From Bacteroidota bacterium (GTDB lineage: Bacteria > Bacteroidota > Bacteroidia > Chitinophagales > Chitinophagaceae), in NCBI GenBank assembly GCA_013286315.1, contig JABDFX010000008.1, forward strand, positions 1 through 64,000: a DNA stretch of 64,000 nucleotides, written 5' to 3'. A model generated the notes under the pieces. The model was given only the letters and a program-made list of their open reading frames with translations. It searched no databases and was not told where the DNA came from. A program made the position numbers and the translations under genes. Positions 283 through 30,849 of this stretch are shown here, piece by piece. Numbering within the stretch: the stretch's first letter is position 1; each line of letters starts with the position of its first letter.

Positions 283-355
283 AAAAACTAAAAAGTAAAA
301 ATTTAAAAGTAAAGGAGGAAAAGATCATTTTCCTTTTTATTTTTTACTTTTTAAA
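283..355. repeat. A/T-rich imperfect inverted repeat of short words (AAAAGTAAA...GGAGGAAAA / TTTTCC...TTTTTTACTTTTT) between divergent purC and TonB receptor
   Basis: Left arm AAAAACTAAAAAGTAAAAATTTAAAAGTAAAGGAGGAAAA; right arm TTTTCCTTTTTATTTTTTACTTTTTAAA is approximately its reverse complement. Confidence 0.6.
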
Positions 356-404
356 AAGATAGTACATATTTGTATCGGGAAATTCAATAAACTAACTACT
401 TGCC

Positions 405-3155
405 ATGAAAACATTTACACGTGCTTTTTTTATATGCCATATTGTATTCCTGTCTCTTGGTAATTCCTTCGCCCAAACGCAAATCATAACGGGTAAAATC
501 AATAATGGAGACAACAAAGAACCCGTTCCGGCCGCTTCTGTTTTGATCAAAGGAGGAACCAGGGGAACATTTACTGACAACCATGGGAATTTCAAACTTA
601 CGGTCCAGTCTTTTCCAGTCACATTGATCATTTCATCGGTTGGATACGAAACGCAGGAATTCCAGGTGGTATCTGCCTCCACTGTTATTTCCATTGATTT
701 GAAACCCGCTTCCATTATGGGTACGGAAGTGGTGGTATCCGCAACGCGCTCACAGATACGAAGCCTTGAATCACCTGTCTCCATCGAACGCATGAGTTCA
801 TCCTATATCCGCGAAGTACCTGCGCCTTCTTTTTATGATGCCATCGCCAATTTGAAAGGGGTGGATGTGGTCACTTCATCTATTCTGTTTAAAACCATGG
901 GAACCCGCGGATTTAACGGCTCGGGAAATGTCCGGATGAACCAGCTGGTGGATGGAATGGATAACCAGGCACCGGGATTGAATTTTGCCGTGGGTAATAT
1001 CGTTGGTTTGAATGAACTGGATGTGGATAATGTGGAATTATTACCAGGTGCGTCATCTGCCTTGTATGGATCCGGCGGCATGACGGGTACGATATTGATG
1101 ACCAGCAAGGATCCCTATAAATACCAGGGTTTAAGCGCCATCGTTAAATACGGCCGGAATCATATCAGCGATCCCAGTACGAGTGCAGCTCCATATTATG
1201 ACGTCATGTTACGATACGCGCAATCCTTTAATAAATTTGCATTCCGAATTTCAGGGGAATACACGAAGGCGAAAGACTGGACGGCGACCAATTACAGCAA
1301 TTACTCACCGTATCAGGGTACCCCCATTGCCGGCGACAGGAGTTTACCGAATTATAATGGAGTGAATGTATACGGAGATGAAAGTCCTTTTTTCACAGTA
1401 TACAATGGACTACAAAGTGCAGCTAATCAGTATCAACAGGCGGGAGATCCTGTAACAGCTGCCAAGCTGAGGGGCATCGCTGCGTTAACTCCGGTAAATT
1501 CAAGCGTAACAAGAACCGGATACAGTGAAGATTCACTAACAAATTATAATGCTTATAATTTAAAAGTTTCGGCCGGTTTATATTATAAGGTCAGCGACAA
1601 CACGACGGTAAGCCTGACTGGAAATTTCGGAGAGACGAATACAATCTATACAGGAACCGACCGCTTTAGTTTAGTCGACACAAAAATCGGACAGTATAAG
1701 GCTGAAGTAACCGGTAAGAATTTTTATGCAAGGGCCTATACAACGCAGGAAGATGCGGGCAATTCCTACGACATGGTAGCAGCTGCTACGCTTCTCAATG
1801 AATCGTACGCGCCTACCGCAACAGTATGGGCACCCACTTATATCGGAACCTATGCACAGGCATTTGGGGCGGCACTTGCACTTGGAGAAACACCTGCCCA
1901 GGCCTATGTGAGTGCCAGTGCAGCTGCGAGATTCAATGCAGATAAAGGCAGGTATCAGCCGGGAACAGTCCCGTTCAACAATGCATTGGATTCACTGAAG
2001 AAACTGGCAATTCCTGCGGGTGCAAAATTCAATGATAAGACAAACCTGTATGTCGCGGAAGGCATGTATAATTTTTCTGATCTGATCAAATGGGCCGACA
2101 TCAGCATCGGTGTTGCTACCAAAGAATATGTGTTGAATTCCCATGGGACGATCTTCGCGGATACAGCCGGTGTGATCAATATCAACGAGACAGGTGGTTT
2201 TGCCCAGATTCAAAAAGGATTTTTTGAAGATTACCTGAAAATAACTGTGGCAGGCCGGTACGATAAGAATTCCAATTTCAAAGGAAGATTCACACCGAGA
2301 ATTACAGCCGTATATGAAGTGGCCAAAGATAACTATATCCGTGCCTCATATCAGACGGCTTATCGTTTTCCTTCTACGCAGAATCAATATATCAACCTGC
2401 AGACGGGTTCCGCGAGACTGATCGGCGGTCTGCCACAATTTATTTCCTACTATGGTTTAACAACTAATACGTATGACACGGCAGAGCTTGGAAATTATGC
2501 GAGAACCGGCACACCGCCAACACAATATCAATTCAAAGAATTCAAACCTGAAACCGTGGCTTCCTGGGAATTGGGATACAAGGGGATTATCGCAAATAAA
2601 TTATTCATAGATGTTTATGGTTTCTATGCGCAGTACACAGATTTTATCGGGCTGACCGTGCTGGTTAAAAACCCGTTGACCCAAGGACAAAATGCATTGA
2701 ACACTTTCGGCATATATACAAACAGCAGTAATAAGGTGAATACGGTTGGCGCCGGTATCGGTCTACAATATACATTGCCGAAAGGATTTTTTGTGGGTGG
2801 TAATCTTGCGTACAATGATATATCCAATAATGATGCGAATGTGCTGACGCAATTTAATACACCGAAAATCAAGTACAATATTTCTGTCGGAAACTACACG
2901 ATCAAAAAAGTTTTTGGCTTCAACCTGACCTATCACTGGCAGGATAGCTATTTATATGAATCATCATTCATTTCCGGTACTACACCATCCTTCGGCGCAC
3001 TGGATGCACAAATCAGCATGAAACTTCCAAAATTGCAGAACAGTATGATCAAGATCGGCGCTACGAACCTGTTGAATAAATATTATTCCGATGCGATCGG
3101 TAATTCACAGATCGGAGGATTGTACTACGTGAGTATTGGTTACAACGTCTTCTAG
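405..3155 (+). CDS. TonB-dependent outer-membrane receptor with N-terminal carboxypeptidase-regulatory-like domain
   Basis: Signal peptide; ITGKINNGDNKEPVPAASVLIKGGTRGTFTDNHGNFKL (CarboxypepD_reg-like), plug (LKGVDVVTSS...RGFNGSGNVRMNQLVDGMDNQ), C-terminal barrel ending in F. Confidence 0.9.
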   Translation: MKTFTRAFFICHIVFLSLGNSFAQTQIITGKINNGDNKEPVPAASVLIKGGTRGTFTDNHGNFKLTVQSFPVTLIISSVGYETQEFQVVSASTVISIDLKPASIMGTEVVVSATRSQIRSLESPVSIERMSSSYIREVPAPSFYDAIANLKGVDVVTSSILFKTMGTRGFNGSGNVRMNQLVDGMDNQAPGLNFAVGNIVGLNELDVDNVELLPGASSALYGSGGMTGTILMTSKDPYKYQGLSAIVKYGRNHISDPSTSAAPYYDVMLRYAQSFNKFAFRISGEYTKAKDWTATNYSNYSPYQGTPIAGDRSLPNYNGVNVYGDESPFFTVYNGLQSAANQYQQAGDPVTAAKLRGIAALTPVNSSVTRTGYSEDSLTNYNAYNLKVSAGLYYKVSDNTTVSLTGNFGETNTIYTGTDRFSLVDTKIGQYKAEVTGKNFYARAYTTQEDAGNSYDMVAAATLLNESYAPTATVWAPTYIGTYAQAFGAALALGETPAQAYVSASAAARFNADKGRYQPGTVPFNNALDSLKKLAIPAGAKFNDKTNLYVAEGMYNFSDLIKWADISIGVATKEYVLNSHGTIFADTAGVININETGGFAQIQKGFFEDYLKITVAGRYDKNSNFKGRFTPRITAVYEVAKDNYIRASYQTAYRFPSTQNQYINLQTGSARLIGGLPQFISYYGLTTNTYDTAELGNYARTGTPPTQYQFKEFKPETVASWELGYKGIIANKLFIDVYGFYAQYTDFIGLTVLVKNPLTQGQNALNTFGIYTNSSNKVNTVGAGIGLQYTLPKGFFVGGNLAYNDISNNDANVLTQFNTPKIKYNISVGNYTIKKVFGFNLTYHWQDSYLYESSFISGTTPSFGALDAQISMKLPKLQNSMIKIGATNLLNKYYSDAIGNSQIGGLYYVSIGYNVF

Positions 3156-3158
3156 TGT

Positions 3159-3261
3159 GGAAGTATGGAAGAATGGAAGTTTGGAAGTATGGAAGAATGG
3201 AAGTATCTGAAACTAATTAACTATTACTTCCAAACTTCCATACTTCCATTCTTCCATACTT
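3159..3261. repeat. Tandem octamer (GGAAGNNT) array folded into an inverted repeat between convergent genes
   Basis: GGAAGTAT GGAAGAAT GGAAGTTT GGAAGTAT GGAAGAAT GGAAGTAT, 19-nt spacer, then ACTTCC AAACTTCC ATACTTCC ATTCTTCC ATACTT (reverse complement words). Confidence 0.9.
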
Positions 3262-3274
3262 GTGATAAGTGGGG

Positions 3275-4375
3275 CTAAACATTGAAACGAAAGTGCATAA
3301 CGTCCCCGTCCTTTACGACATAGTCCTTTCCTTCAATCCTGAGTTTCCCTGCTTCGCGGCAGGCTGCTTCGGATTTATATTTTATGAAGTCATCATAGGC
3401 GATTACTTCGGCTTTGATAAATCCTTTTTCAAAATCGGTATGAATAACAGAAGCTGCCTGCGGGGCTTTCCATCCTTTTTGAATGGTCCACGCCCTGACT
3501 TCCTGCACACCGGCCGTGAAATAAGTTTGCAAGGTTAACAGGGCATAAGTACTCCTGATCAGTTTATTCAAAGCGGGTTCCTTCATTTTATATTCTTCCA
3601 TGAACATGGCTTTGTCATCTGCATTCTCAAGTTCTGCGATTTGCTGTTCAATGGAATTATTCATTACGATCACCTGAGCATGTTCAGCTTCCGCGGCTTT
3701 TTTCAGCGCCTCGGAATATTTATTTCCGGTATGCATCGATTCCTCGTCCACATTGGCGACGTATAAAACGGGTTTGTCTGTTAATAAAAACAGATCCGCG
3801 ATGGCCGTCTTGTCATTTTTATCCAGGTGAAGCTCACGGATATTTTTTCCTTTTTCAAGATACTCCTTACAACGTTTAAGCACTTCAAATTCCAATTTCT
3901 GTTTAGGGTCTGCTGTTCTGAGTAATTTTTCAGCTTTCTGATATTTTCTTTCTACCCCATCCAGATCTTTCAGTTGAAGCTCCGTATCTATAATTTCTTT
4001 ATCGCTGACGGGATTGATGGCCCCCTCATCGCGAAGGATATTTTCATCTTCGAAACAACGGATCACGTGGACGATAGCGTCTACCTCGCGTATATTGGCC
4101 AGGAATTTATTTCCCAGACCCTCACCTTTGCTGGCTCCTTTTACGAGTCCCGCAATGTCTACGATTTCAATCTGGGTTGGTACGATTCGATCGGGATGCA
4201 CCAGCGCCGCCAGTTTATCCAGTCTTTCGTCCGGCACATCCACAAGCCCGATATTGGGTTCAATCGTACAAAACCGGTAATTGCTTGCCTGGGCTTTTGC
4301 ACTGGTACTGACCGCATTAAACAACGTGGATTTTCCTACATTCGGTAACCCTACGATGCCTGCCTTTAAAGCCAT
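3275..4375 (-). CDS. ychF: Redox-regulated ATPase YchF (OBG-family GTPase-like)
   Basis: MALKAGIVGLPNVGKSTLFNAVS...NYRFCTIEPNIGLVDVPDERL; 366 aa; C-terminal TGS-like domain (LQTYFTAGVQEVRAWTIQKG...YVVKDGDVMHFRFNV). Confidence 0.97.
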   Translation of the reverse strand: MALKAGIVGLPNVGKSTLFNAVSTSAKAQASNYRFCTIEPNIGLVDVPDERLDKLAALVHPDRIVPTQIEIVDIAGLVKGASKGEGLGNKFLANIREVDAIVHVIRCFEDENILRDEGAINPVSDKEIIDTELQLKDLDGVERKYQKAEKLLRTADPKQKLEFEVLKRCKEYLEKGKNIRELHLDKNDKTAIADLFLLTDKPVLYVANVDEESMHTGNKYSEALKKAAEAEHAQVIVMNNSIEQQIAELENADDKAMFMEEYKMKEPALNKLIRSTYALLTLQTYFTAGVQEVRAWTIQKGWKAPQAASVIHTDFEKGFIKAEVIAYDDFIKYKSEAACREAGKLRIEGKDYVVKDGDVMHFRFNV

Positions 4376-4484
4376 AGAAAATAAAATTTATTGATTCAGA
4401 ATACCCGTGTTTTTGCGCCCGCAAAGATAGAAGTATTTGAGGGATCGTTATTTAATTACTTATATTCAACCCATAATTCCGGCT

Positions 4485-5717
4485 ATGGCCCTCAATCTGA
4501 TCTGGATCATTTTTTTTCTGATAGCATTCATTACGGCACTTGTGCGGCTGATTTTTTTCGGGGATACGGAGATATTCAAAACAATTATCGATGGGGTTTT
4601 TGATTCCGCGGGTACGAGTGTACAAATAGCCATCGGACTGATTGGTGTACTGGCAATGTTTCTGGGATTCTTAAATATCGGAGAGAAGGCTGGCGCCATC
4701 AATTTTCTGTCCCGCATTATAGGTCCTTTTTTCAGTAAACTTTTTCCGGAGGTTCCGAAAAATCATCCTTCGATGGGACATATGGTAATGAATTTTTCTG
4801 CGAACCTGCTGGGTCTTGATAATGCCGCTACTCCGTTTGGTCTAAAAGCCATGAAAAGCCTGCAGGAGCTGAATCCTGTTAAAGATCAGGCTTCCAATGC
4901 GCAGATCATGTTCATGGTACTGCATGCCTCGGGACTCACGATCATTCCGGTGAGTATTATTGCCCAGCGTGCCATTCTCAAGTCGAACGACCCCACGAGC
5001 ATTTTTATTCCCTGTATGATTGTCACTTTTGTTGCGACCGTGGTGGCCCTTACGGTGGTTGCAATCAAACAAAAGATCAATTTATTCCAGCCCGTGATTT
5101 TGTTATGGGTGGGAGGCATCTCTGTATTAATCGGCGCGCTCGTGTATTTTTTGCACCTGCACAGTAATTATATTGATCCTTTTTCAAAGATATTCAGCAA
5201 TGGCCTGATCCTTTTATTGTTTGTGATATTTATCATCGGGGGCCTGGTGCGGCGTATCAATGTATATGAATCTTTCATAGAAGGTGCCAAGCAGGGTTTC
5301 CAGGTGGCTGTTACGGTGATTCCTTACCTGGTGGCGATGCTTGTTGCCATCAGCGTGATTCGAAGTTGCGGCGTGCTCGATTTTATTACCGGTGGAATAG
5401 GATCTTTCTTTCATCTGCTCGGTATCAATAATGATTTTGTTCCGGCATTACCGACAGCCCTGATGCGTCCCTTGAGCGGAGCTGCCGGTCGGGGTATGAT
5501 GATTACTGCAATGCAGCAGTACGGACCTGATTCCTTTATTGGAAAACTTTCCTGTATTTTCCAGGGAACCACGGATTCAACATTTTATATCGTGGCATTA
5601 TATTTTGGTTCTATTGGTATCAGCAAGACCCGCTATACGATACCAGTTTCATTACTGGCAGATTTGTCGGCGATTATAACGGCGATTTTGATATCGTATA
5701 TATTCTTTGTGCATTGA
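4485..5717 (+). CDS. Fused SpmA/SpmB-like nucleoside-recognition (Gate) domain membrane protein
   Basis: MALNLIWIIFFLIAFITALVRLIFFGDTEIFK...FDSAGTSVQIAIGLIGVLAMFLGFLNIGEKAG...; two Gate-like halves. Longer start at 4437 possible. Confidence 0.85.
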   Translation: MALNLIWIIFFLIAFITALVRLIFFGDTEIFKTIIDGVFDSAGTSVQIAIGLIGVLAMFLGFLNIGEKAGAINFLSRIIGPFFSKLFPEVPKNHPSMGHMVMNFSANLLGLDNAATPFGLKAMKSLQELNPVKDQASNAQIMFMVLHASGLTIIPVSIIAQRAILKSNDPTSIFIPCMIVTFVATVVALTVVAIKQKINLFQPVILLWVGGISVLIGALVYFLHLHSNYIDPFSKIFSNGLILLLFVIFIIGGLVRRINVYESFIEGAKQGFQVAVTVIPYLVAMLVAISVIRSCGVLDFITGGIGSFFHLLGINNDFVPALPTALMRPLSGAAGRGMMITAMQQYGPDSFIGKLSCIFQGTTDSTFYIVALYFGSIGISKTRYTIPVSLLADLSAIITAILISYIFFVH

Positions 5718-5719
5718 GA

Positions 5720-5784
5720 GGGGCGGGATGCAGGAGGCGGGAGGGGTGAAGTACCTCAACCTTCTAGCCTCCCGCTTCCGGCTT
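5720..5784. repeat. G-rich word repeat / imperfect inverted repeat at convergent junction
   Basis: GGGCGGGATGCAGGAGGCGGGAGGGG ... CCTCCCGCTTCCGGC; 11/12 match of GGAGGCGGGAGG to the reverse complement of CCTCCCGCTTCC. Confidence 0.55.
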
Positions 5785-7407
5785 GATTGGGTTTTCAAAC
5801 AGCTCAAATTTCGATTTCGGTCTTCGCTCGTCGAGCCATTTGAAATTACGGAGTTTCATTTCATCGAGGTTTACTTTTTTGATCGGGTACATGATGCCGT
5901 CGGCATCCTGGCGGAGAACCACTTTGTTCAACTGTTTATTGAGAAAGATCATATCGATGACATCTGCTTTATTCACCCGGTTGACCCCAACAAAGGCCGC
6001 ACTGTCATCCTTTATATAATAAACAGCTTCGGCACTTCCCTTACTTCGCATATAGTCTATGACACCGTCCTTAAAATATCCGTTCAGCGTATTGCCTTTA
6101 ATCTGATTAAACATATTCGTATAGGCTTTTCCAACCACCAGGCTGTTTTCGAAAACATATAGCCGGTCAGGTTTTTTATTTTTTGTATATAGAAACATCG
6201 TGTCACCGGTAACCTGAAACCCACCAGCCCAGGCAATGGGGTTTGTGTATAATCGGAAAATGGAATCGAGTCCGGAATAATAACAACTATCAGCCACAGC
6301 CTGCAGGGAGTCTGAAAAAATTCTTACATGATGATAGATTTGTAAATAACGGAGGCTGCTGTCGTGCGGATTTTTTGCACTGCGAACGATTTCCGAACCC
6401 TGTACCGAATCGGGCCTGTTTAAAACAGAGTCAGGAATTCGTGCTGAATAAACTGTGTCACCCGTTATATAGATCGAATCCTTATCCTGTTTTAAAATGA
6501 TCAGGGGATTCTGTGTGGCAAAAAAAGTATTCGCTTTACTGTTCGCAATCATCAGATTTGAAATCAGGGTCAGGTTTTGAACCGTATCCCTGAAAACGGC
6601 ATGTCCACGAGCGAGACTCAGGCCGGTGCTGTCATCAAAACGAATATCATCGGCCGTGATCGTTTCCGCTTTATCTGTTATCGTTGGACGTTTTCCAAAC
6701 TGCGCCCGGTGATTTTTCAAATCATAATATCCCTCCTTTGTTCTGATGGTCCTGCCCGTACTGTCGATGATATACGTACTGGTAATAAAAGTTGCCAGCT
6801 GGTTTTCAGAGTTATAAAGTAATGAATCTGCCGTCAAATCATAAGCGGGATCCTTCAGTTTGACGTTCTTCTTAAAATAAATATCCTTGGTTGCTTCATA
6901 GTAGGTCCCTTCCTTACTGGTGACAACCGTATTTTTATTGATCACCTTCCCGCCATTATAATAATCCCCGATATGCTGATTCATATCATAATGCAATTCG
7001 TCGGTTGTTAAAGTGCCTTTCCCGTCTTTCAACACAACATTTTTCTGAAAAATAATCTGCTTCGTGTCAACAAAATATCTCATGTAATCCGAATAGATAT
7101 CTGTTGAATCCTTGTCGTTGATATGCACATGGCCGAAGGCTTCGATCGTGTTATCCTTATGGTTCATTGCGAGACTATCGGTATAAAACAATGTTTTGTC
7201 ACTCTGCAGTTTTACATGACCGAACAAAGATTGAATATCAACAGAATCCTTTTGCACCTGACGAAGCGTATCAGAGTGCCATATATAAATGGTTTGCGTG
7301 CTGTCGCTGGTTTTGGACTTGAAAGCAACAGCAATCTGCGCAAAGGATTGAAATCCTGACATGCACAATATCAGTAAGGCCAGAAAATGGGCCGGTTTTT
7401 TCATCAC
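5764..7407 (-). CDS. OstA/LptA-like LPS-export-associated protein
   Basis: Signal peptide; repeated OstA-like beta strands (VKLQSDKTLFYTDSLAMNHKDNTIEAFGHVHINDKDSTDIYSDYMRYF...); 547 aa; coupled with the MCE gene by a 4-bp overlap. Confidence 0.85.
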   Translation of the reverse strand: MMKKPAHFLALLILCMSGFQSFAQIAVAFKSKTSDSTQTIYIWHSDTLRQVQKDSVDIQSLFGHVKLQSDKTLFYTDSLAMNHKDNTIEAFGHVHINDKDSTDIYSDYMRYFVDTKQIIFQKNVVLKDGKGTLTTDELHYDMNQHIGDYYNGGKVINKNTVVTSKEGTYYEATKDIYFKKNVKLKDPAYDLTADSLLYNSENQLATFITSTYIIDSTGRTIRTKEGYYDLKNHRAQFGKRPTITDKAETITADDIRFDDSTGLSLARGHAVFRDTVQNLTLISNLMIANSKANTFFATQNPLIILKQDKDSIYITGDTVYSARIPDSVLNRPDSVQGSEIVRSAKNPHDSSLRYLQIYHHVRIFSDSLQAVADSCYYSGLDSIFRLYTNPIAWAGGFQVTGDTMFLYTKNKKPDRLYVFENSLVVGKAYTNMFNQIKGNTLNGYFKDGVIDYMRSKGSAEAVYYIKDDSAAFVGVNRVNKADVIDMIFLNKQLNKVVLRQDADGIMYPIKKVNLDEMKLRNFKWLDERRPKSKFELFENPIKPEAGG

Positions 7408-8405
7408 TTCTTGGTTGGCGGATTGGAATTGGCGCTGCTGTCATTCAGGGGGGCCATCAGGGGTCCTTTTTTATCCTTGCTTCCGAAAACAGAAATGTTG
7501 ACATAACGTTTCGGATGCATTCGCAGGTCGTCCAGTAAAATATTCAGACTCCGCGTTGTGCTTTCCAGGTTGAGGTAAAGTTTTTTGTCATTTATGAGTA
7601 AGCCGAGTGTACCATTCGGACTGTTCACTTTGTTTAATGCATCCCTTAGTGAATTCATCGCATTCTGCGCGCTGGCCAGGGTCTCATCTATTTGCGCATT
7701 GGCCAGTTTATTGGTCGTTTTTTCGAGATTGTCGAGGGTACCGGTAATCCGTTGATTATTGCTGGCCAGGTTGTTGGTGAAACTGTCCAGGTGTATCATT
7801 GTATGAGCGAGTGCACTGGTCCGGTCGTTCAGCATAATCTGAAGCGAGACTGATGATTTGGCCAGGTTGCTGATGATCGCAGCGAAATTATTTTTTACTT
7901 CCGGGTTAAACATCGTTGTTATCTGCAGGATCAGCGAATCCAGGGAACTCAGCGTTTTGTTGAGGCTCTTCATGACCGGCGCAAGCCTGCCCTGAACTTC
8001 CGACAGAATGCTGCCCTGATCTACAGTCTGCAGTGTATCGCCATCCTGTAACATCTCCGTGGCATCTCCCTTGTTGATAACAATATTTGAGGAACTGATC
8101 AGTGCTGATTTAATAACCGCAGCAGAGTTTTTTGGAATGTTTACATCCTGCTTCATACTGATGGTGACCAGGATACCGTCAATATTTGGATCCGTTGCCT
8201 TTATGGCGTATACACTGCCCACATTTAATCCTTTGATACTAACAGAATTTGATAATTCAAGACCATCCACGTTTTTGAACACGGCGTAAATTTTCTTGCT
8301 ATGTGAAAAAAGATCTTTTCCCTTCAGAAAATTAAATCCCAGGATGAGCAGCACGATGGCAACCGACGTTAGTGCACCAATTTTTGTTTCGTTCGTAATT
8401 TTCAT
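7404..8405 (-). CDS. MlaD/MCE-family protein (lipid ABC transporter substrate-binding component)
   Basis: MKITNETKIGALTSVAIVLLILGFNFLKGKDLFSHSKKIYAVFKNVDGLELSNSVSIKGLNVGSVYAI; MCE domain after one TM helix. Confidence 0.93.
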   Translation of the reverse strand: MKITNETKIGALTSVAIVLLILGFNFLKGKDLFSHSKKIYAVFKNVDGLELSNSVSIKGLNVGSVYAIKATDPNIDGILVTISMKQDVNIPKNSAAVIKSALISSSNIVINKGDATEMLQDGDTLQTVDQGSILSEVQGRLAPVMKSLNKTLSSLDSLILQITTMFNPEVKNNFAAIISNLAKSSVSLQIMLNDRTSALAHTMIHLDSFTNNLASNNQRITGTLDNLEKTTNKLANAQIDETLASAQNAMNSLRDALNKVNSPNGTLGLLINDKKLYLNLESTTRSLNILLDDLRMHPKRYVNISVFGSKDKKGPLMAPLNDSSANSNPPTKK

Positions 8406-8498
8406 TCGCAGTTTTGTTTAAAATAGCCGCCGCCAACATCTTTTATGCTCTACAAACCTAAGGAAAAAGATCGTTCCCCGTTGAGGATCTCTACTCCT

Positions 8499-9491
8499 TT
8501 ATTGGCGAATGGAATCCTGTGCCGACGCCGGAGGAACAGGAACATTGCCTTCAACCTGGTTTTTATAACGTTCCAGAGCATCAACAATATTCTCTACAAC
8601 TTCATCCTGTCCTTTATTACTGTTCAGATATTCTTCTTCCTCTTTATTACTTAAAAAACCCACTTCTATTAATACACTCGGCATACCGGTTGCCTGCAAC
8701 ACCTGGATACCCACGTCCCGTTGTTTAACGCCATAACTCTGTCTTCCTGCTGCCGCGAAAGATTCTTCCACCATGGTTGCGAAAAGGGCGCTGTTATCGA
8801 AATATTTTTTTTCATATAAAGTGGCGCGCATACGGGCCTCGGGAGATGTCAGGTCAAAAGCTTCTTCCGCTGCGGCACTACTGCTGCTGTCGGCAACATC
8901 CTCGCCACTTTCCTCGCGTTCATTGATTGCGTCGTTCTTATTTTCCTGCTTTCCTGCTTTCCAGATATATGTTTCCGTTCCAACGCGCGTATTCTTCACC
9001 CAATATGACTCATATATAGGTGCATTGATCCATTTCTTTCTTTTCTTTGAACCCTTACCAACATATACCAGCTTTTTTTTGTGCCCGATCACTCTTTTCT
9101 CATAATACCCACCGGCCGGCTGTCTGGTGGAATTGCAATGTATACTGATGAATAAATCTCCTTTGGCCTGATTTGCAATTTGTGCGCGGCCATGCAAATC
9201 ATCGTGCAGGTTGTCTGCATTGTTTACGCAGGCATCGGTTGTTCTGGTAAAAACAACTTTGGTATTGGGAAATCTTGCTTTGATAGCTTCTCCAAGTTTG
9301 AGGGAGATATCGAGCGTAACATCTTTCTCCGCAGAGATTAGTCCCCGGGTGCCGGGGTATAATCCACCATGACCCGGATCAATTACGATGGTGCGTAATT
9401 TAATTGCAGCCGGATGATTACCCGAATGAAAAGACGAAAAAATAAAAAAAATGAAAACAGAAATGAACAGGCCAAATAGTGTTCTCACCAT
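8499..9491 (-). CDS. N-acetylmuramoyl-L-alanine amidase (Amidase_3) with large internal insertion
   Basis: TIVIDPGHGGLYPGTRG...EKDVTLDISLKLGE...TRTTD...GDLFISIHCN...IQVLQATGMPSVLIEVGFLSNKEEEEYL. Confidence 0.95.
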   Translation of the reverse strand: MVRTLFGLFISVFIFFIFSSFHSGNHPAAIKLRTIVIDPGHGGLYPGTRGLISAEKDVTLDISLKLGEAIKARFPNTKVVFTRTTDACVNNADNLHDDLHGRAQIANQAKGDLFISIHCNSTRQPAGGYYEKRVIGHKKKLVYVGKGSKKRKKWINAPIYESYWVKNTRVGTETYIWKAGKQENKNDAINEREESGEDVADSSSSAAAEEAFDLTSPEARMRATLYEKKYFDNSALFATMVEESFAAAGRQSYGVKQRDVGIQVLQATGMPSVLIEVGFLSNKEEEEYLNSNKGQDEVVENIVDALERYKNQVEGNVPVPPASAQDSIRQ

Positions 9492-9547
9492 AGTTATCTT
9501 TTGACTGTCAAGATGTTAATCTTCTTAAATACTTAGATAGATACCCC

Positions 9548-9555
9548 TATTTTTG
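9548..9555 (+). promoter_or_regulatory. Possible Bacteroidota -7 element (TAnnTTTG) upstream of lptD
   Basis: TATTTTTG 15 bp before the 9570 start codon; no clear -33 element verified. Confidence 0.35.
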
Positions 9556-9569
9556 TACCATTGTAATGT

Positions 9570-13029: not shown

Positions 13030-13701
13030 TTATAGTTTCCAGTCGATCGGATCTATTCCGTTCTTCATCAGGTAGGTATTGGCTTTCGAAAAATGCCTGC
13101 ATCCGAAAAATCCCTTATCAGCAGAAAAAGGGGAGGGATGGGCAGCTTTCAAAACATAATGTTTGGTTTCATCGATCAGGGATTGTTTTTCCTGAGCAAA
13201 TTTCCCCCAAAGAAGGAACACCAGATTTTTTTTAAGATCGGAAAGTTTCTGAATCACCGTATCCGTAAATTCTCCCCATCCGGCCTGGGAATGACTGGCC
13301 GGAGCATTTGCCAGCACGGTCAGATAGGCATTGAGTAATAACACTCCCTGCCTGGCCCACGGACTCAGATTGCCGGTCTGTGGAATCGGCATTCCAACGT
13401 CAGTATTCAATTCCTTAAAAATATTCTGCAAAGAGGGCGGGGGCCGGATTCCATCCGGGACGGAGAAGCACAGTCCGTGCGCCTGACCCGGCCCATGATA
13501 AGGATCCTGACCGAGGATGACCAACTTCGTGTTTTCAAAAGGGCACATTTCGAAGGCATTAAAAATCTGGCTCCCTGGCGGATAAATTATTTTGCCAAGA
13601 ATCTTTTCCGTCTTGAGAAAATGTACGATCTGTAAGAAATAGGGTTTGCTGAATTCGGCTTCCAGTACTTTTTTCCAGCCGGCTTCCATTTGGACATTCA
13701 T
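13030..13701 (-). CDS. ung: Uracil-DNA glycosylase
   Basis: VILGQDPYHGPGQAHGLCFSVPDG...LLLNAYLTV...VFLLWGKFAQEKQ...AAHPSPFSADKGFFGCRHFSKANTYL. Confidence 0.98.
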   Translation of the reverse strand: MNVQMEAGWKKVLEAEFSKPYFLQIVHFLKTEKILGKIIYPPGSQIFNAFEMCPFENTKLVILGQDPYHGPGQAHGLCFSVPDGIRPPPSLQNIFKELNTDVGMPIPQTGNLSPWARQGVLLLNAYLTVLANAPASHSQAGWGEFTDTVIQKLSDLKKNLVFLLWGKFAQEKQSLIDETKHYVLKAAHPSPFSADKGFFGCRHFSKANTYLMKNGIDPIDWKL

Positions 13702-13718: not shown

Positions 13719-13857
13719 TAAGCTCAAAGCATAAGGTCTAAAGCCTAAAACTGAATTTGGAAATTGAAATGTTTCTTTATGAATGGAAGGTTCCGTTCGA
13801 AAAAAGCTCTTTATACTTAAAGAAGTTTTAGACTTTAGGCTTTGGGCTTTTGGCTTA
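13719..13857. repeat. AAGCCTAA-word inverted repeat flanking divergent promoters (ung / VOC)
   Basis: Left TTAAGCTCAAAGCATAAGGTCTAAAGCCTAAAACT; right AGTTTTAGACTTTAGGCTTTGGGCTTTTGGCTTA, an imperfect reverse complement about 70 bp apart. Confidence 0.8.
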
Positions 13858-13881: not shown

Positions 13882-14301
13882 ATGTCAAATATCCAACTTG
13901 AAATGATGCCCTATCTCTCTTTCCAGGGCAATTGTGAAGAAGCACTGCATTTCTACAGCGAGATACTGGATGGGCGGATTGAAATTGTATCCCGTTATGA
14001 TAATCCTGCAATGAATACAGCAGTGGATTTTAAAAATAAGATCCTGCATGCGCGTTTTTCTTTTGGGAATTACACACTGTTTGCAAGCGACGTAATGCCT
14101 AAAAAACAAGATGAACAAATGACCAGCAATATTGCCATATCTCTGGGGTTTCATGATGAAGTGGTTGCTGAAAATATTTTTGACAGACTGAGTGCGGATG
14201 GTGACATTCATATTCCATTTAAGAAACAGTTCTGGGGAGACTGGCATGGCAATTTCAAGGATCGTTTTGATATCCGCTGGATGGTGAATTGTACAAAGTA
14301 A
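13882..14301 (+). CDS. VOC-family protein (PhnB/glyoxalase-like)
   Basis: MMPYLSFQGNCEEALHFYSEILDGRIEIVSRYDNPAMNT...WGDWHGNFKDRFDIRWMVN; 139 aa. Confidence 0.9.
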   Translation: MSNIQLEMMPYLSFQGNCEEALHFYSEILDGRIEIVSRYDNPAMNTAVDFKNKILHARFSFGNYTLFASDVMPKKQDEQMTSNIAISLGFHDEVVAENIFDRLSADGDIHIPFKKQFWGDWHGNFKDRFDIRWMVNCTK

Positions 14302-16406: not shown

Positions 16407-17381
16407 ATGAAAGTATTTATCAGCAGGAAAATTCCGGAAGCAGGGTTACAATATTTGCGTGATGCATCCGTTGAGATTTCAGAGTGGACGGAAAAAAGAG
16501 ACCTTTTGCCGGAGGAGTTAATCGCATATTGCAAAAGTGCAGACGCATTTTTGAGTGCGGGTGGGAATAAGATTGACAAAACATTTCTGCATGCGGTAAG
16601 GCACTTGAAAGTGATCAGCCTGCATAGCGCAGGTTATGACAATGTGGATGTTGCTGCTGCAACCGAAATCAAAATGCCGATTGGAAATACACCGGGCGTG
16701 TTAAGTGATGCCACAGCAGATATCGCCTTTTTACTGATGTTGGCTACATCCCGCAAAGCCTTTTATATGAGCAGAATCATTCAGCAGGGTGGCTGGGGTT
16801 TTTTTGAACCGACCGCCAACCTGGGAATCGATATCCGGTACAAAACACTGGGCATTTATGGATTGGGAAAAATTGGATTTGAATTGGCTAAACGGGCTGC
16901 CGCAGCCTTTGGCATGGAAATTATTTATCATAACCGTAGTCATAATGAAGAAGCTGAACAAGAACTTCATGCTCAATGGGTATCTTTTGATGACTTGCTA
17001 GAAAAGAGTGATGTACTTTCCGTTAACACGGCACTGACAGCAGAAACTAAAGGGAAATTCAATAAAGATGTTTTCGCGAAGATGAAACCCACAGCGATAT
17101 TCATCAATGCAGCGCGTGGTTCAATTCATAATGAAGAGGATCTGACGGAGGCTTTGGAAAAAGGAATTATCTGGGGGGCCGGTCTGGATGTAACGAATCC
17201 GGAACCTATGCGGCCGGATCATCCACTGCTTTCCATGCCCAATGTTTGCGTTCTGCCGCATATTGGTTCAGCAACGGAAGAAACGCGTGCGGCCATGTCG
17301 CTGCTTGCCGCAAAAAATATCGTTGCCGGTTTAAAAGGGGAAAGGCTGCCGTTTATTGTAAATCCAGCCATTTATGCGTAA
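16407..17381 (+). CDS. D-2-hydroxyacid dehydrogenase (glyoxylate/hydroxypyruvate reductase-like)
   Basis: LGIYGLGKIGFELAKRAAAFGM-like Rossmann motif, AIFINAARGSIHNEEDL, GLDVTNPEPM, VLPHIGSATEETR. Confidence 0.93.
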   Translation: MKVFISRKIPEAGLQYLRDASVEISEWTEKRDLLPEELIAYCKSADAFLSAGGNKIDKTFLHAVRHLKVISLHSAGYDNVDVAAATEIKMPIGNTPGVLSDATADIAFLLMLATSRKAFYMSRIIQQGGWGFFEPTANLGIDIRYKTLGIYGLGKIGFELAKRAAAAFGMEIIYHNRSHNEEAEQELHAQWVSFDDLLEKSDVLSVNTALTAETKGKFNKDVFAKMKPTAIFINAARGSIHNEEDLTEALEKGIIWGAGLDVTNPEPMRPDHPLLSMPNVCVLPHIGSATEETRAAMSLLAAKNIVAGLKGERLPFIVNPAIYA

Positions 17382-17422
17382 AGCCATATTTTAGCATGGT
17401 GAGCGTGGAAGCATAGAAAATT

Positions 17423-17505
17423 AAAAAGGTGAAAGTTGATAAAGAAAATGATGATGTGATAATATTTTTTCAAACTATCATTTCCTTTTTCAACTTCCAC
17501 TTTCC
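17423..17505. repeat. Purine/pyrimidine imperfect inverted repeat at convergent junction
   Basis: AAAAAGGTGAAAGTTGATAAAGAAAATGAT vs reverse complement of ATCATTTCCTTTTTCAACTTCCACTTTCC: 23/29 positions match by hand alignment. Confidence 0.65.
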
Positions 17506-17536
17506 CTCATTTCCCACCCTCATCACATTTGCCACA

Positions 17537-19016: not shown

Positions 19017-19028
19017 AGTTATTTCTAT

Positions 19029-19839: not shown

Positions 19840-19861
19840 AAAAGATTTCTTATGGTCAGCG

Positions 19862-21825: not shown

Positions 21826-21854
21826 AGTTTTCTACTATCTATCGGATGAAACAA

Positions 21855-22736: not shown

Positions 22737-22866
22737 GATCTGTAAATTGTTATCTGATTTTAATGAAAAATTAAGCGCTTAGTAGTGAGTACGATCTTTT
22801 ATAAACCGGGTTGCGTGTATTGGAAATTGATTCATCACAGGTGAATATGAATGCGTTTAATTTATT

Positions 22867-23535
22867 ATGTTTGGCAAACCCGAACAAACTCATGTGCGCC
22901 GAATATTCGTCCTGCTTTTATCCCTGACATTTCTTAACAGCTTTGCAAATGGCGAAACCCAGGCGCCGGGCAATTATTTTAACTGGTTCAACATCTGGTT
23001 AAGTTTCTTCTTCGGGTTACTTTTTACCATTTTATTCCGTTTCCTGAATAAATACTCTAAAACAATCGATCAGCGCAGTAATCCCGGAATGCCTTTGAGT
23101 GGATGGGTCATGTTTTTAGGAATCAACCTGCTGGCACGATTCGTCATTCAAATTTATTTTTTCTGGCATGCAAATTATTTTTTAGAGTCAGTATGGATAC
23201 ATCTGGGTCAACTAGGCGGGACGAGATATCAGGTTCTATTTATTATTGAACTATTCCTTTCCTTAATTGCAGTTGCAGGTACCGGTGCCTTAATATATTG
23301 GTTTTTTGGAAGAAGAGATATTTTCCCGACCCTCTTTATTTATTATGCTGGGATCTATATCGTTGTGACCAGTTTACTGTTATTCATATATCATTTCATG
23401 AATCTGCCCCCGGAAATGATCAGTATCCGGCGGGATATGTATATGCAGATCCTCAGAATAACTTACACATCAGCCTGGGTGATTTTCGTCTGGAAATCAG
23501 ATCTGGTGAAACAAACTTTTGTTTATCCGAAGTAA
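22867..23535 (+). CDS. Multi-TM membrane protein (DUF2569-like)
   Basis: GMPLSGWVMFLGINLLARFVIQIYFFWHANYF; five or so hydrophobic segments. Confidence 0.6.
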   Translation: MFGKPEQTHVRRIFVLLLSLTFLNSFANGETQAPGNYFNWFNIWLSFFFGLLFTILFRFLNKYSKTIDQRSNPGMPLSGWVMFLGINLLARFVIQIYFFWHANYFLESVWIHLGQLGGTRYQVLFIIELFLSLIAVAGTGALIYWFFGRRDIFPTLFIYYAGIYIVVTSLLLFIYHFMNLPPEMISIRRDMYMQILRITYTSAWVIFVWKSDLVKQTFVYPK

Positions 23536-23560
23536 GTCCAAAGCCTAAAACCTCATATCT

Positions 23561-23607
23561 GTCAACCGTCTACCGTCAACAGTCAACCGTCAACCGCCAA
23601 CCGCCAA
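23561..23607. repeat. Heptamer tandem repeat GTCAACC (about 6.7 degenerate copies) between convergent genes
   Basis: GTCAACC GTCTACC GTCAACA GTCAACC GTCAACC GCCAACC GCCAA. Confidence 0.9.
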
Positions 23608-23612
23608 GTGTT

Positions 23613-25829: not shown

Positions 25830-25859
25830 ATTATTCAGATTATCTTAAAAGTACCAAGA

Positions 25860-25896
25860 AAGTATGGATGTATGAAAGTCTGTCCCGCCTTGGCGG
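25860..25896. repeat. Degenerate octamer word (AAGTATGGATGTATGAAAGT) followed by CCGCCTTGGCGG hairpin
   Basis: Read directly; similar composite found on the other side of the AI-2E gene at 27001-27069. Confidence 0.6.
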
Positions 25897-25969
25897 AATG
25901 GGAATGCTGCATCATTGCTATCGGATTATTTGTCTAAAAGTAACTTAACTTCAATCATAAACCGGTAGG

Positions 25970-26995
25970 ATGAAACCATATGATACCGAGAAGGTCAGAC
26001 AGTTTTTCTTTATCGTGGTATTGGCTGGGATGGCTATTATCCTGTTCACCTATCTGAAATCATTCCTGCCATCCTTCCTGGGTGCGATAACTTTTTATGT
26101 GCTGATGCGCCGTCATATGAAGCGTATGCTGATAAAGGGATGGAAACCTGCGTCAGCAGCCCTGATCCTGATGTTGTTTTCATTTATAATGATTTTATTT
26201 CCGGTTTTTATTCTGATAAATACCGTCAGTTCGAAAATAGGATATGTGATTGACCATGCAACAGAAATCACCAGCTCGCTGGTGGACTTCCTGAAAAATA
26301 TCGAACTACGTGTCGGATATCATTTTATGAATGCCGACACGATTCGGAACCTGAGTGGAATAGCCTTATCTGAATTACCATTGATACTGGGTGCAACCGT
26401 GAATTCCATCGTGGCACTTGTGGTGATGTACTTTCTGTTATACTTCATGCTCACCAATGGTAATCGACTGGAGGACTGGATGGAGGATGTACTTCCGCTG
26501 AGAAAGGATAATCTGCAGCGCGTTCGCCACCAGATGAACCAAATGGTAATATCAAATGCAGTAGGTATTCCCTTGATTGCCTTGTTGCAGGGGATTGCTG
26601 GATTGATCCTTTACCTGATTTTAGACATCAAAGAACCCCTGCTTTGGTTTGCGCTGACCGCGTTTACCTCCATTCTGCCGCTTGTCGGCTCTTCTCTTGC
26701 ATACGTGCCTCTGGCCATTATACAAATAGCAAATGGCGACACAACAAAAGGAATCATCGTTCTGGTGTACGGATTGGGTGTAATCGTTACGATGGACAAT
26801 GTCTTTCGGCTGTGGCTGCAAAGGAGAATCGGAAATGTTCATCCGCTGATTACCTTATTCGGGGTATTTGTCGGCGTACCGTTATTTGGATTCATAGGCC
26901 TCATCTTCGGTCCCTTGCTCATTTCAATTTTTATATTACTGATGCGTATTTACCGGGTTGAATTTATTGCTCCGGAAGAAAGTCTGGATGATTAA
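25970..26995 (+). CDS. AI-2E/PerM-family membrane transporter
   Basis: Multi-TM; LIALLQGIAGLILYLILDIKEPLLWFALTAFTSILPLVGSSLAYVPLAI...HPLITLFGVFVGVPLFGFIGLIFGPLLIS. Confidence 0.92.
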   Translation: MKPYDTEKVRQFFFIVVLAGMAIILFTYLKSFLPSFLGAITFYVLMRRHMKRMLIKGWKPASAALILMLFSFIMILFPVFILINTVSSKIGYVIDHATEITSSLVDFLKNIELRVGYHFMNADTIRNLSGIALSELPLILGATVNSIVALVVMYFLLYFMLTNGNRLEDWMEDVLPLRKDNLQRVRHQMNQMVISNAVGIPLIALLQGIAGLILYLILDIKEPLLWFALTAFTSILPLVGSSLAYVPLAIIQIANGDTTKGIIVLVYGLGVIVTMDNVFRLWLQRRIGNVHPLITLFGVFVGVPLFGFIGLIFGPLLISIFILLMRIYRVEFIAPEESLDD

Positions 26996-27000
26996 AACAC

Positions 27001-27036
27001 AAGTATGGAAGTATGGAAGTATGGAAGAATGGAAGT
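27001..27036. repeat. Tandem octamer array (AAGTATGG)n
   Basis: AAGTATGG AAGTATGG AAGTATGG AAGAATGG AAGT. Confidence 0.9.
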
Positions 27037-27054
27037 TCACTTAATAACAACCGT

Positions 27055-27070
27055 TCCCGCATGTGCGGGA
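27055..27070. repeat. Perfect 16-bp palindrome TCCCGCATGTGCGGGA
   Basis: Self-complementary by direct reading. Confidence 0.85.
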
Positions 27071-27083
27071 TCAACTGTCAACA

Positions 27084-27113
27084 AAAAAGGACCGCTTTAT
27101 ACCGGTCCTTTTT
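27084..27113. terminator. Bidirectional intrinsic terminator between AI-2E transporter and HU
   Basis: AAAAAGGACCG-CTTTATAC-CGGTCCTTTTT: perfect 11-bp stem with flanking A/T tracts, convergent genes. Confidence 0.92.
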
Positions 27114-27131
27114 ATAATATCGAAAAAACGA

Positions 27132-27401
27132 TCACACGCGGCTTGCAAGTTCTTTGCCCGCTTTGAACTTTGCTACTTTTTTCGCCTTTATCTTGATGGT
27201 TGCACCGGTTTGAGGATTCCGGCCATTACGTGCTGCACGTTTTGAAACAGAAAAAGTTCCGAATCCGACAAGTGTTACTTTGTCTCCTTTCCTGAGTGTT
27301 TTGGCTATGGCTTCTGTAAATGAATCGAGCGCGGCGCCGGCCTGCGTTTTAGTGAGACCCGCGTCATCGGCTAATTTTGCAATCAGATCTGCTTTGTTCA
27401 T
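27132..27401 (-). CDS. HU-family DNA-binding protein
   Basis: MNKADLIAKLADDAGLTKTQAGAALDSFTEAIAKTLRKGDKVTLVGFGTFSVSKRAARNGRNPQTGATIKI. Confidence 0.98.
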   Translation of the reverse strand: MNKADLIAKLADDAGLTKTQAGAALDSFTEAIAKTLRKGDKVTLVGFGTFSVSKRAARNGRNPQTGATIKIKAKKVAKFKAGKELASRV

Positions 27402-27579
27402 GGAAAATGTTTTTATTGATTTCGAGAAAGAGCAAATATAAGGTTATGCCCTAAGAAGCCTGATGCTGAAAAAATATTTACTACTCAGACAGTCTGAAAT
27501 ATAGGTTTTAGTGCTCAAATCTGTTTTTCCTAAATAAATTGCGGAATTCGTCATGTACGTCAATGGAATAAACCACCGA

Positions 27580-28269
27580 TTATATATACTTCATCAGTTG
27601 CGCTGTCAATTCCTCAATACCTTCCGTTGCCGGTTTTTGAATGCTGTAAAGGTTTTCAATACCCCGTGTGTAAGGAATATTTTTGTCTACGATGAATTTT
27701 GGTATTTGTGGCGAAGCAAAATCAATGAGACCCGCTGCGGGGTAAACGGCGAGGGAGGTTCCGATGATGACCATAATATCCGCCTTACGAACCAGCCGGC
27801 TGGCATCTGCGATCAGTGGAACAGGTTCTTCAAACCACACGATATGCGGTCGAAGTTGTCCGCCGTCCGGCGCCTGATCGCCGAATTTGATATCCTCCCG
27901 TATGGAGTAAACTATGCTTTCATTTAACTCACTTCGCATTTTGAAGATTTCCCCATGCAGATGTAAAACACGTGACGAACCTGCCCTTTCGTGCAGATCA
28001 TCGATATTCTGTGTGATGATTTGCATGTCGAAATATTTTTCCAGTCCGGCCAGACCATGATGGGCGGCATTCGGAATCGCATCACGAACATTATTCCGTC
28101 GCATATTGTAAAACTCGAGAACCAATTCCGGATTCTTTTTCCAGCCCCTGGGGGTGGCGACCTCATTTACATCATATCCTTCCCAAAGTCCATCACTGTC
28201 CCGGAAGGTTTTCAATCCGCTCTCTGCACTGATGCCAGCTCCGCTGAGAACAATGAGTTTCTTTGTCAT
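27580..28269 (-). CDS. cobB: NAD-dependent protein deacylase (sirtuin)
   Basis: LIVLSGAGISAESGLKTFRDSDGLWEGY...IITQNIDDLHERAGSSRVLHLHGE...PHIVWFEEPVP...IIGTSLAVYPAAGL. Confidence 0.95.
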   Translation of the reverse strand: MTKKLIVLSGAGISAESGLKTFRDSDGLWEGYDVNEVATPRGWKKNPELVLEFYNMRRNNVRDAIPNAAHHGLAGLEKYFDMQIITQNIDDLHERAGSSRVLHLHGEIFKMRSELNESIVYSIREDIKFGDQAPDGGQLRPHIVWFEEPVPLIADASRLVRKADIMVIIGTSLAVYPAAGLIDFASPQIPKFIVDKNIPYTRGIENLYSIQKPATEGIEELTAQLMKYI

Positions 28270-28307
28270 TTATGAAATTACAAATAGTCGCGTAGTTGCC
28301 GTACATT

Positions 28308-28577
28308 TTACCCAGATACAAGGGTCCCGGCTTTTTCTTCAACAGGGTTTTCTTCAGCATCGTTTTGTAATGCCGTCAACGGACAATATCCTGTAAGACC
28401 ACGCATGATCAGCAAGGTTCCGGCCGTCATCCGTACGGATCTTCGGAACGAGGATTTACCAAAGCCAAAAACACCCATTGCCAGGAGAAGGCCCCCGGTT
28501 ACGGCAGATATCAGTCTTTGTTTTTCGGAAATATTGACAACAGGGCTTACGACCTTATTTAGATCTGTGTACTTCAT
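28308..28577 (-). CDS. DUF2892 (YgaP-like) membrane protein
   Basis: VNISEKQRLISAVTGGLLLAMGVFGFGKSSFRRSVRMTAGTLLIMRGLTGYCPLTAL. Confidence 0.8.
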   Translation of the reverse strand: MKYTDLNKVVSPVVNISEKQRLISAVTGGLLLAMGVFGFGKSSFRRSVRMTAGTLLIMRGLTGYCPLTALQNDAEENPVEEKAGTLVSG

Positions 28578-28661
28578 AACACGGTTTTAATAATGGGTGC
28601 AATCCACGTGCCCTGTTTCACATGACGGATTGAGACATGAAAGAACTTTACGTTTTACGCT

Positions 28662-30680
28662 TCAGTTTAAGGCTTTTAACGCCTTCTTCATATCGATACC
28701 CTTTCCAAGAACAGGCTTGAAAATATCTTCCTCCCTGATAATTCTTGCGACGGCATTGCGCATCGTAAAGTCCTGCATCTTTAATCCCTTTTTTAATTCT
28801 TCCCAATGGAGTGGCATAGAAACGGTAGCACCGGGTTTTGGTCTGACGGAATAAGGGGCAGCCAGCGTGGCTTGCGGCCTGTTCTGCAAAAAGTCAAGAT
28901 AAATTTTCCCCTTTCTACTGGCCGTGGGCCTTTCAATGCTCGTAAACTTCGGAATTTCTTTTTGTACCCTCGTTACAATTGTACGGGCAAATTCTTTTGA
29001 TTCTTCATACTTATATTTTGCACCCAACGGGATGTAAATATGTATACCGGTTGAACCGGATGTTTTGCAGAAGGAATCGATGCCCATACTCTCAAGCAAT
29101 TGATAAGTAACCGTCGCGGTTTCTATGACCTGATCGAAAGGATTTTTATCCGGGTCAAGATCTATGATGCACCAATCCGGATAGTCTGGTTTTTTAATCG
29201 TACTCGACCATGGATTCATTTCTATACAACCCAGCGATGCCATATATAATAAGCTGGCTTCATCGGTAGCAACCAGAAATTCTTTTTCACGACTATCATC
29301 TTCGGAATGATAAGCAAAAGTCTGCAGCCACTCGGGCGCTTTTCCTTTTACATCTTTTTGGTAAAAACTTACGCCATTAATTCCATTCGGAAACCGGTTG
29401 AGTGACTGGGGCCGGCCGGTCAGGTAGGGCAAAATAAAGGGCGCCACCTGATAATAATAATTGAGCAGGTCGCGCTTGGTAAGTTTTTCTTTGGGCCAGT
29501 ATATCTTGCTGAGGTTGGTGAATTTTATTTCATGCCCTTTTATCTTTTTCACCTGTGTTTCTTCAGAAGGATTTAATAACGATTTTAGTTCACCTGTTGG
29601 AGTTGCCATGATGATATTGATTTGATCTGGTAATTTTTTATGATGCCTTATTTGATCTGTCGGAATTTCTTTTCCCATTACAACTGAATCCGGATTTTTA
29701 TCCGATCGCATTCCTTCAAATGACGGATGCCGCATGACACCGTCGGAAGTCATTTCGGCAAAACTGACTTCGCAGACCAGTTTTGGCTTCAGCCAGATCG
29801 CTTTGGCATTCGGAGGATCAGGTCTGAAACGGGAAGGTTTATTGATATCCGGTATTGATTGAAAGGGGGCGGATTTTATGATCAGAGGCTTGAATCGCCT
29901 CAATAGTTCTCCCTGTGTTTCCTGGTTAAAGCCCGTTCCGATTTTGCCCGTATAAATCAGGTTGCCATTTTTATAAACGCCGACCAATAGGGAACTGAAT
30001 AATTTGGAAGAACCATCGTTGATCGTGTATCCCCCGATAACCACTTCCTGCCGCTGATGTGACTTTATTTTAAGCCATTCCCGCGTTCGGTCATTTTCGT
30101 GATAGGTGCTCCATTTATTTTTAGCAATGATCCCCTCGAGGCCTAATTCCTTCACGGATTCAAAGAGCCGGATGCCTGATTCTTCAAATCCCTCGCTGAT
30201 GCGTAAATTGATCGAAGGGAGTTTCAGCCTTTTGAGAATTTTTCTTCGTTCCATGAGGGAAAGCGACTTCAGATCATAACCATCCAGCCATAGAATATCA
30301 AAGATGTAATAAAACAGTTCGCCATCTGCCTCGCTCCTCCAATTCTGTAATGCACCGAAGTCTGAATTACCCGTTTTATTGATCACAACAATTTCCCCGT
30401 CAAGAACTGCGTGCAGATTGCATTTTACCAATGCTTCATAAATGGGATAGAATTTTTCATTAAAGGATTTATCGTTCCTGGATTGGAGTGCAACAGATTT
30501 TGCATTCATAATGGCGATGGCCCTGTAACCATCCCATTTCACTTCAAAAATCCAGTCCGGATCATCGAATGGCTTGTTTACCAGGGTTGCCAGCATGGGC
30601 TTCACCCGCTTGGGCATTGGGCTTTTTTCTGCAGAGGAACTGGTTTTTTTAACCGGTCTCGTTTTTGCTTTGACAACCAT
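28662..30680 (-). CDS. ligD: DNA ligase D: ATP-dependent ligase + primase/polymerase domains, no N-terminal phosphoesterase domain
   Basis: Ligase motif EVKWDGYRAIA, LDGEIVVI, IIAKNKWSTY; C-terminal POL domain KGHEIKFTNLSKIYWPKEKLTKRDLLNYY...CIIDLDPDK...CKTSGSTGIHIYIPL...RKGKIYLDFLQN; 672 aa. Confidence 0.93.
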   Translation of the reverse strand: MVVKAKTRPVKKTSSSAEKSPMPKRVKPMLATLVNKPFDDPDWIFEVKWDGYRAIAIMNAKSVALQSRNDKSFNEKFYPIYEALVKCNLHAVLDGEIVVINKTGNSDFGALQNWRSEADGELFYYIFDILWLDGYDLKSLSLMERRKILKRLKLPSINLRISEGFEESGIRLFESVKELGLEGIIAKNKWSTYHENDRTREWLKIKSHQRQEVVIGGYTINDGSSKLFSSLLVGVYKNGNLIYTGKIGTGFNQETQGELLRRFKPLIIKSAPFQSIPDINKPSRFRPDPPNAKAIWLKPKLVCEVSFAEMTSDGVMRHPSFEGMRSDKNPDSVVMGKEIPTDQIRHHKKLPDQINIIMATPTGELKSLLNPSEETQVKKIKGHEIKFTNLSKIYWPKEKLTKRDLLNYYYQVAPFILPYLTGRPQSLNRFPNGINGVSFYQKDVKGKAPEWLQTFAYHSEDDSREKEFLVATDEASLLYMASLGCIEMNPWSSTIKKPDYPDWCIIDLDPDKNPFDQVIETATVTYQLLESMGIDSFCKTSGSTGIHIYIPLGAKYKYEESKEFARTIVTRVQKEIPKFTSIERPTASRKGKIYLDFLQNRPQATLAAPYSVRPKPGATVSMPLHWEELKKGLKMQDFTMRNAVARIIREEDIFKPVLGKGIDMKKALKALN

Positions 30681-30724
30681 CTAATGTGGGATTTACCCGC
30701 TAACAGTTTATAAAACCATGCCAT

Positions 30725-30849
30725 CAAGCCTAAAGGCCTAAAGGCCTAAAGCCCAAAACTAAATTGATAATGAGTAAATATTCAAATATGCGAATGATTA
30801 GAGGCGTCATTTGAATTAAAAAAGTTTTAGACTTTGGGCTTTAGGCTTG
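30725..30849. repeat. AAGCCTAA-word inverted repeat, right arm overlapping the ACP stop codon
   Basis: Left CAAGCCTAAAGGCCTAAAGGCCTAAAGCCCAAAACT; right AGTTTTAGACTTTGGGCTTTAGGCTTG. Confidence 0.88.

Follow-up and report, generated by a model that had tools for sequence, protein, structure and literature searches.

In cyanobacteria, Xanthomonas, Beggiatoaceae and certain Bacteroidetes, long simple-sequence repeats built from units of 7 nt are on record, and some of these repeats are inverted (PMC4679880, PMC4692102). For Bacteroidetes a mild heptamer excess with a median category of +0.75 was reported (PMC4060949). That bacterial genomes are over-rich in heptamer repeats has been recognized since 2007, as cited in PMC4692102, and there is no accepted cause. 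The arrays analyzed here share several properties with these systems. Like the cyanobacterial heptanucleotide STRRs and the Nostoc GGGGA(T/C)T repeats they include intergenic 7-nt tandems that are degenerate at fixed positions and in some cases inverted. However, the cyanobacterial repeats use one or few words (PMC4692102), whereas the genome investigated here employs more than 10 words of 7 and 8 nt, which lie at stop codons and are replaced between species. The Xanthomonas GGGAATC repeats are likewise intergenic heptamers, some of them inverted at convergent positions, and in two relatives they mostly have the same flanking genes but vary in length and sequence, as observed here; their word is the same in both organisms, whereas here it usually differs at a kept site (PMC4692102). 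The TAACTGA repeats of Beggiatoaceae, some cyanobacteria and five Bacteroidetes also form heptamer arrays that are absent from some close relatives, and in some Bacteroidetes other heptamers are mixed in, as in our case. They differ by a single favoured word and, in Maribeggiatoa, by a position mostly just upstream of start codons (PMC4679880). Of the hallmarks of STRR-type repeats, head-to-tail units of 6–9 nt over-represented in intergenic DNA were found for our arrays. In view of these described repeats, some of them inverted, the statement of the first-pass annotation that ordinary repeat families do not explain the arrays was too strong. Arrays of many words that lie next to stop codons and change their word at kept sites were not encountered in a literature search that had most subscription papers outside its scope.

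The window, a stretch of 64,000 nucleotides, belongs to the metagenome-assembled genome (MAG) of a soil bacterium of the Chitinophagaceae, termed G000 (3.31 Mb assembly, 59% complete). The genome was assigned to this family by its YchF-type gene at 3275-4375; the nearest named record is the soil MAG JABDDT01, with Flavihumibacter and Pinibacter next. As gene calling took simply the longest ORF, start positions are approximate. The features of the window are listed in the table below. Eight tandem arrays of 7-8 bp words had been annotated. Five of these were recovered by TRF at period 7-8 and a sixth by our array scan; the one at 5720 is short and degenerate, and the inverted repeat at 17423-17505 is not tandem. 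Second arms, claimed for five of the eight, are clear at four loci, weak at the 5720 and 17423 loci and absent from the arrays at 23561-23607 and 27001-27036 in an inverted-repeat search. A search of the window against Rfam gave no match above the gathering score. The divergent promoter gaps 4375-4436 (GTTTTTGCGCCCGCAAAGATAGAAGTATTT) and 9491-9569 (TTGACTGTCAAGATGTTAATCTTC) are nearly invariant across the genus; array-free divergent promoter gaps such as the latter are strongly conserved.

Table: Repeat arrays and associated features in the window
Position	Feature	Strand	Evidence	Genomic context
281-355	A-rich heptamers TAAAAAG/GTAAAAA with T-rich second arm		TRF, period 7 (281-313); inverted arms 289-353 (289-313/329-353)	Between divergent genes
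3154-3206	GGAAGNNT octamer array, first arm	+	TRF, period 8; inverted arms 3154-3261	Runs from the TonB-dependent receptor gene 405-3155, starting at its stop codon
3225-3261	Second arm, CTTCC words	-	TRF; arms 94% complementary over 35 nt	Words are GGAAG when read along the convergent YchF-type GTPase gene 3275-4375 (Pfam)
5720-5784	Short degenerate GGCGGGA heptamers	+	Read in the sequence; below the thresholds of TRF and array scan	Partial second arm within the final codons of gene 5764-7407 (-)
13719-13857	AAAGCCT heptamers, folded, 84-nt loop		Array scan, not TRF (13827-13856); inverted arms 13727-13856, 78% complementary	Between divergent genes 13030-13701 (-) and 13882-14301 (+), the latter with Pfam support
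17423-17505	Loose purine-rich/pyrimidine-rich inverted repeat		Inverted repeat; no tandem array detected	
23561-23607	GTCAACC/GCCAACC heptamers, single arm	+	TRF	
27001-27036	AAGTATGG octamers, single arm	+	TRF	Begins 3 bp past the stop codon of gene 25970-26995
27083-27118	Canonical bidirectional terminator		A-tract/GC-stem/U-tract	Adjoins array 27001-27036; by an HU-like gene
30725-30851	AAGCCTAA words, folded, 75-nt loop	-	TRF (30728-30751); inverted arms 30725-30851	Directly adjoins the acyl-carrier-like gene 30841-31116 (-) (Pfam) at its stop codon

The abundance of such arrays was determined in 1.23 Mb of G000, comprising 131,879 intergenic bases and 1.09 Mb of coding DNA, and chance expectation was derived from dinucleotide-preserving shuffles of the intergenic DNA. 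This census revealed 117 intergenic arrays of period 7 and 40 of period 8, compared with 0.2 each in the shuffles. Thus, the arrays are real, genome-wide and far beyond chance, and the enrichment over shuffled intergenic DNA on which the earlier proposal depended is borne out. Coding DNA contained 10 period-7 and 3 period-8 arrays. Other periods were scarce: 0 to 7 arrays were counted for periods 3-5 and 9-12 and 8 for period 6, and the period-14 arrays represent 2 x 7. Arrays occurred in 37% of the convergent, 20% of the co-directional and 9% of the divergent gaps. Within co-directional gaps the median distance was 4 bp to the upstream stop codon and 36 bp to the downstream start. Two of the annotated arrays, 283-355 and 13719-13857, depart from this genome-wide trend by their position between divergent genes. 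Most word families have a fixed orientation relative to the preceding gene, with ratios of 26:3 for GGAAGNNT, 17:3 for AACGCNT, 13:2 for AAAGCCT, 11:0 for GGMRGGA and 10:5 for GGTTGAC-sense words. The purine share of gene-sense arrays was mildly elevated (0.57 versus 0.51 in the background). Concentration of the arrays in the first half of the window is real but not special: arrays clump throughout the genome (variance/mean of 2.9 in 20-kb bins), which accounts for the array-empty second half. Dense regions such as contig C18 (L060, L070) and C1:1-36000 (L031, L032) hold up to 10-12 clusters per 20 kb compared with a mean of 2.2, and carry several distinct word families side by side. One CCGCCAA array contains an assembly gap of N (L032:1718-1868). 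Arrays in MAGs are hence probably longer than the assemblies show, and contigs may break at them.

One architecture is spelled with different words, as had been read from the window. More than 10 word families are present in G000, among them AAAGCCT, CCGYCAA, AATTGTY, AACGCNT, GGMRGGA, AATAATT, AAAAAGT, GGAAGNNT, AGTATARG, AGTATGRG and the 6-mer AAGGCT. In one word count the reversed-pattern control was itself a variant of the CCGYCAA family and hence not independent. Triplets of GGAAGNNT were found 114 times genome-wide and the reversed pattern 0 times, while each of 59 relatives, 32 of them of the same genus, contained 0-1. AGTATARG was counted 122 times in the relative G017 and 26 times in G000, and was absent from the remaining 31 genomes of the genus. 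The word lexicons are species-private. De novo scans detected arrays of period 7/8, spelled with other words, in G017, G005, G015 and G030, and hardly any in G007; word densities in the G015 and G019 stretches are inflated, as these were partly picked for word matches. No arrays were detected by de novo scan in samples of G006, G002 and G009 (20 kb each). The arrays are thus dispensable, as some congeners have few or none. A set of 80 Chitinophagaceae-type loci (0.95 Mb) contained 29 period-7 and 18 period-8 intergenic arrays with still other words, and arrays were also present in the isolates Pinibacter aurantiacus (L173) and Longitalea luteola (L197). Strong octamer arrays elsewhere in the family are those of L204:5880-5969 (AACACCTA) and L197:3970-4398 (ATCATCACATTATCAC); the latter, from L. 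luteola, is repeated several times within one gap.

Word turnover at the same junctions, for which a comparison of sister strains had been suggested, was observed between sister species. The junction 3155-3274 contains folded GGAAGNNT in G000, folded AGTATARG in G017 and short unrelated hairpins in G015, G019 and G007; among the relatives, the junction after the YchF gene is occupied by other arrays, short hairpins or canonical terminators. GGCGGGA words at junction 5717-5763 of G000 correspond to folded GGTAGAT in G005 and a tiny U-tract hairpin in G015. At 13719-13857 the G017 junction has GTTGGCG words, and at 17381-17536 folded TAACGCA was found in G017 and folded GGTTGACG in G007. GTCAACC at 23535-23612 corresponds to folded TTATGGA in G017 and an 11-bp gap in G015. 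The G017 junction orthologous to 281-355 keeps similar words.

Conservation of array sites was quantified mostly with one relative, G017, which is syntenic with the first 30 kb of the window. Among 79 junctions syntenic between both genomes (about 75% identity) arrays were present in both at 15, in G000 only at 4, in G017 only at 8 and in neither at 52, corresponding to an odds ratio of 24 (p 2e-7). The association persisted when only gaps of 40 bp or longer were counted (15/4/8/29, p 5e-5), after removal of the array-dense contig C18 (7/4/7/29, p 0.009) and after removal of weak orthologues (11/4/8/27, p 0.001). Control for region or gap length by permutation weakened the effect without abolishing it, with p 0.04 within loci and p 0.003 within gap-length classes. 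Nevertheless, only 2-3 of the 15 shared array sites have a word common to both species; at one site (L070 5942) the word is the same and the unit order is shifted. Sites persist while words are replaced; the effect is real, partly regional and documented mainly for one species pair.

Folding was regarded in the first-pass annotation as part of the general design. This is not supported, since a strict second arm was found at only 44 of 135 array-bearing gene ends in G000. Where arms exist the predicted hairpins are indeed strong, with a median of -42 kcal/mol and a z of -9 for RNA hairpins of folded arrays at convergent ends. Some pairs share rare variants in register in both arms (e.g. L047:13666-13759 and L127:18594-18663). 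Comparison of arm unit order with permutations placed 37 pairs above and 19 below the null. This slight excess is too weak for the arms to be exact inverted duplications, an origin that we rejected, and would be expected from template switching and from selection on pairing alike.

The suggested role as bidirectional terminators is not supported. Bidirectional intrinsic terminators are hairpins between convergent genes as well, but the arrays have arms of tandem words, are mostly unfolded and coexist with canonical terminators, and no U-tract was found after the GGAAG second arms. Coexistence is illustrated by the terminator at 27083-27118 beside its array; the design of this terminator, not its stem sequence, is conserved in G017 and G015. 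Canonical terminators were found at 10 of the 135 array ends in G000, a share that does not exceed the 15% elsewhere. Raw counts in three data sets, from G000, G017 and other Chitinophagaceae, gave a lower share of them at array ends. With length-matched ends and array space masked, 5.2, 3.7 and 2.3 terminators were predicted and 10, 8 and 3 observed. The depletion thus vanishes or reverses and is explained by occupied space. Consequently, arrays as terminator substitutes were discarded. A stop-codon back-up was also rejected: words of some families appear to be based on TAA, TAG or TGA, while GGAAGNNT and GGCRGGA contain no stop.

Taken together, the shared sites with different words probably reflect a process that makes repeats at gene ends and not the conservation of a signal. 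Our preferred reading, for which we judge the chances to be evenly balanced, is that the arrays are lineage-specific long simple-sequence repeats of the STRR/heptamer kind which arise after genes by slippage and template switching. Replication slippage would generate the tandem 7-8 nt units, and template switching between nearby copies the inverted arms. Arrays may accumulate just past stop codons because this DNA is transcribed and untranslated: insertions would be tolerated there and the nascent RNA would be free of ribosomes, while arrays would be purged from promoters and coding DNA. Transcription could also account for the gene-relative sense and for site persistence. In our proposal only local permissiveness or transcription matters, so that an array keeps its site and its word can be freely replaced and homogenized within each species. 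Observed directly are the strong restriction to periods 7, 8 and their multiples, the location, the gene-sense orientation, the species-private words and the persistence of sites with exchanged words. From these, and from the two thirds of arrays without a second arm and their dispensability in congeners, we infer the source of the arrays, the part played by transcription and the lack of a required function. Pure neutrality does not readily explain one word at dozens of loci in one species, the gene-sense orientation and stable folds could reflect selection, and a further objection is that site persistence has a regional component.

The main rival to slippage is a 3' element of which only the structure is selected, with the arrays as arms of bidirectional terminators or of hairpins protecting 3' ends and with free spelling. 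We consider this possible, if on the unlikely side. The location at the ends of genes with a peak at convergent junctions, the gene-sense word coming first, the z values at convergent ends and the slightly better matched arm order all agree with it, as does the variety of arrays, hairpins and terminators after the YchF gene of the relatives. However, such an element fits the folded third and not the rest, the GGAAG hairpins lack a U-tract, the array at 27001 adjoins a conserved canonical terminator, and the apparent terminator depletion disappeared under space control. A sequence-free 3'-end element, for which selection keeps the tandem or folded array while slippage and conversion respell it in each species, appears rather doubtful. 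The regular spacing and gene-relative orientation would also agree with tandem sites bound by a protein that recognizes RNA or DNA, a role suggested for the Beggiatoaceae TAACTGA repeats; more than 10 unrelated words in one genome, their replacement at kept sites and a position after stops instead of before starts make this reading improbable.

Dispersed mobile palindromes of REP/RAYT or MITE-like type that carry the arrays along would place the same word at dozens of loci, and REP elements with RAYT are dispersed extragenic palindromes at gene ends, too. In contrast to these, the arrays show no fixed element length and combine freely between families. The RAYT-type transposase Y1_Tnp was not found in the 59% complete G000 assembly with positive controls, and the loops between arms are only slightly more similar across loci than shuffles. 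Spread of the whole folded module as one mobile unit or fixed palindrome is therefore unlikely, and we give the mobile-element explanation as a whole little credence. In its favour, a near-constant, non-repeat CCTAAAACT lies at the inner end of folded AAAGCCT arrays at many loci. The same is seen in G017, which hints that this one family has a fixed inner boundary. Chance, low-complexity DNA or an assembly artefact might be suspected from an incomplete MAG with an N gap inside one array. This is hardly credible and is refuted by the 0.2 arrays in shuffles and the like arrays in isolates; the synteny with G017 also speaks against it.

With many words per genome, a strict period of 7 or 8, placement and sense relative to gene ends and word replacement, the genus offers a comparative system. 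Such a system allows a mutational origin of the arrays to be weighed against selection on structure only.
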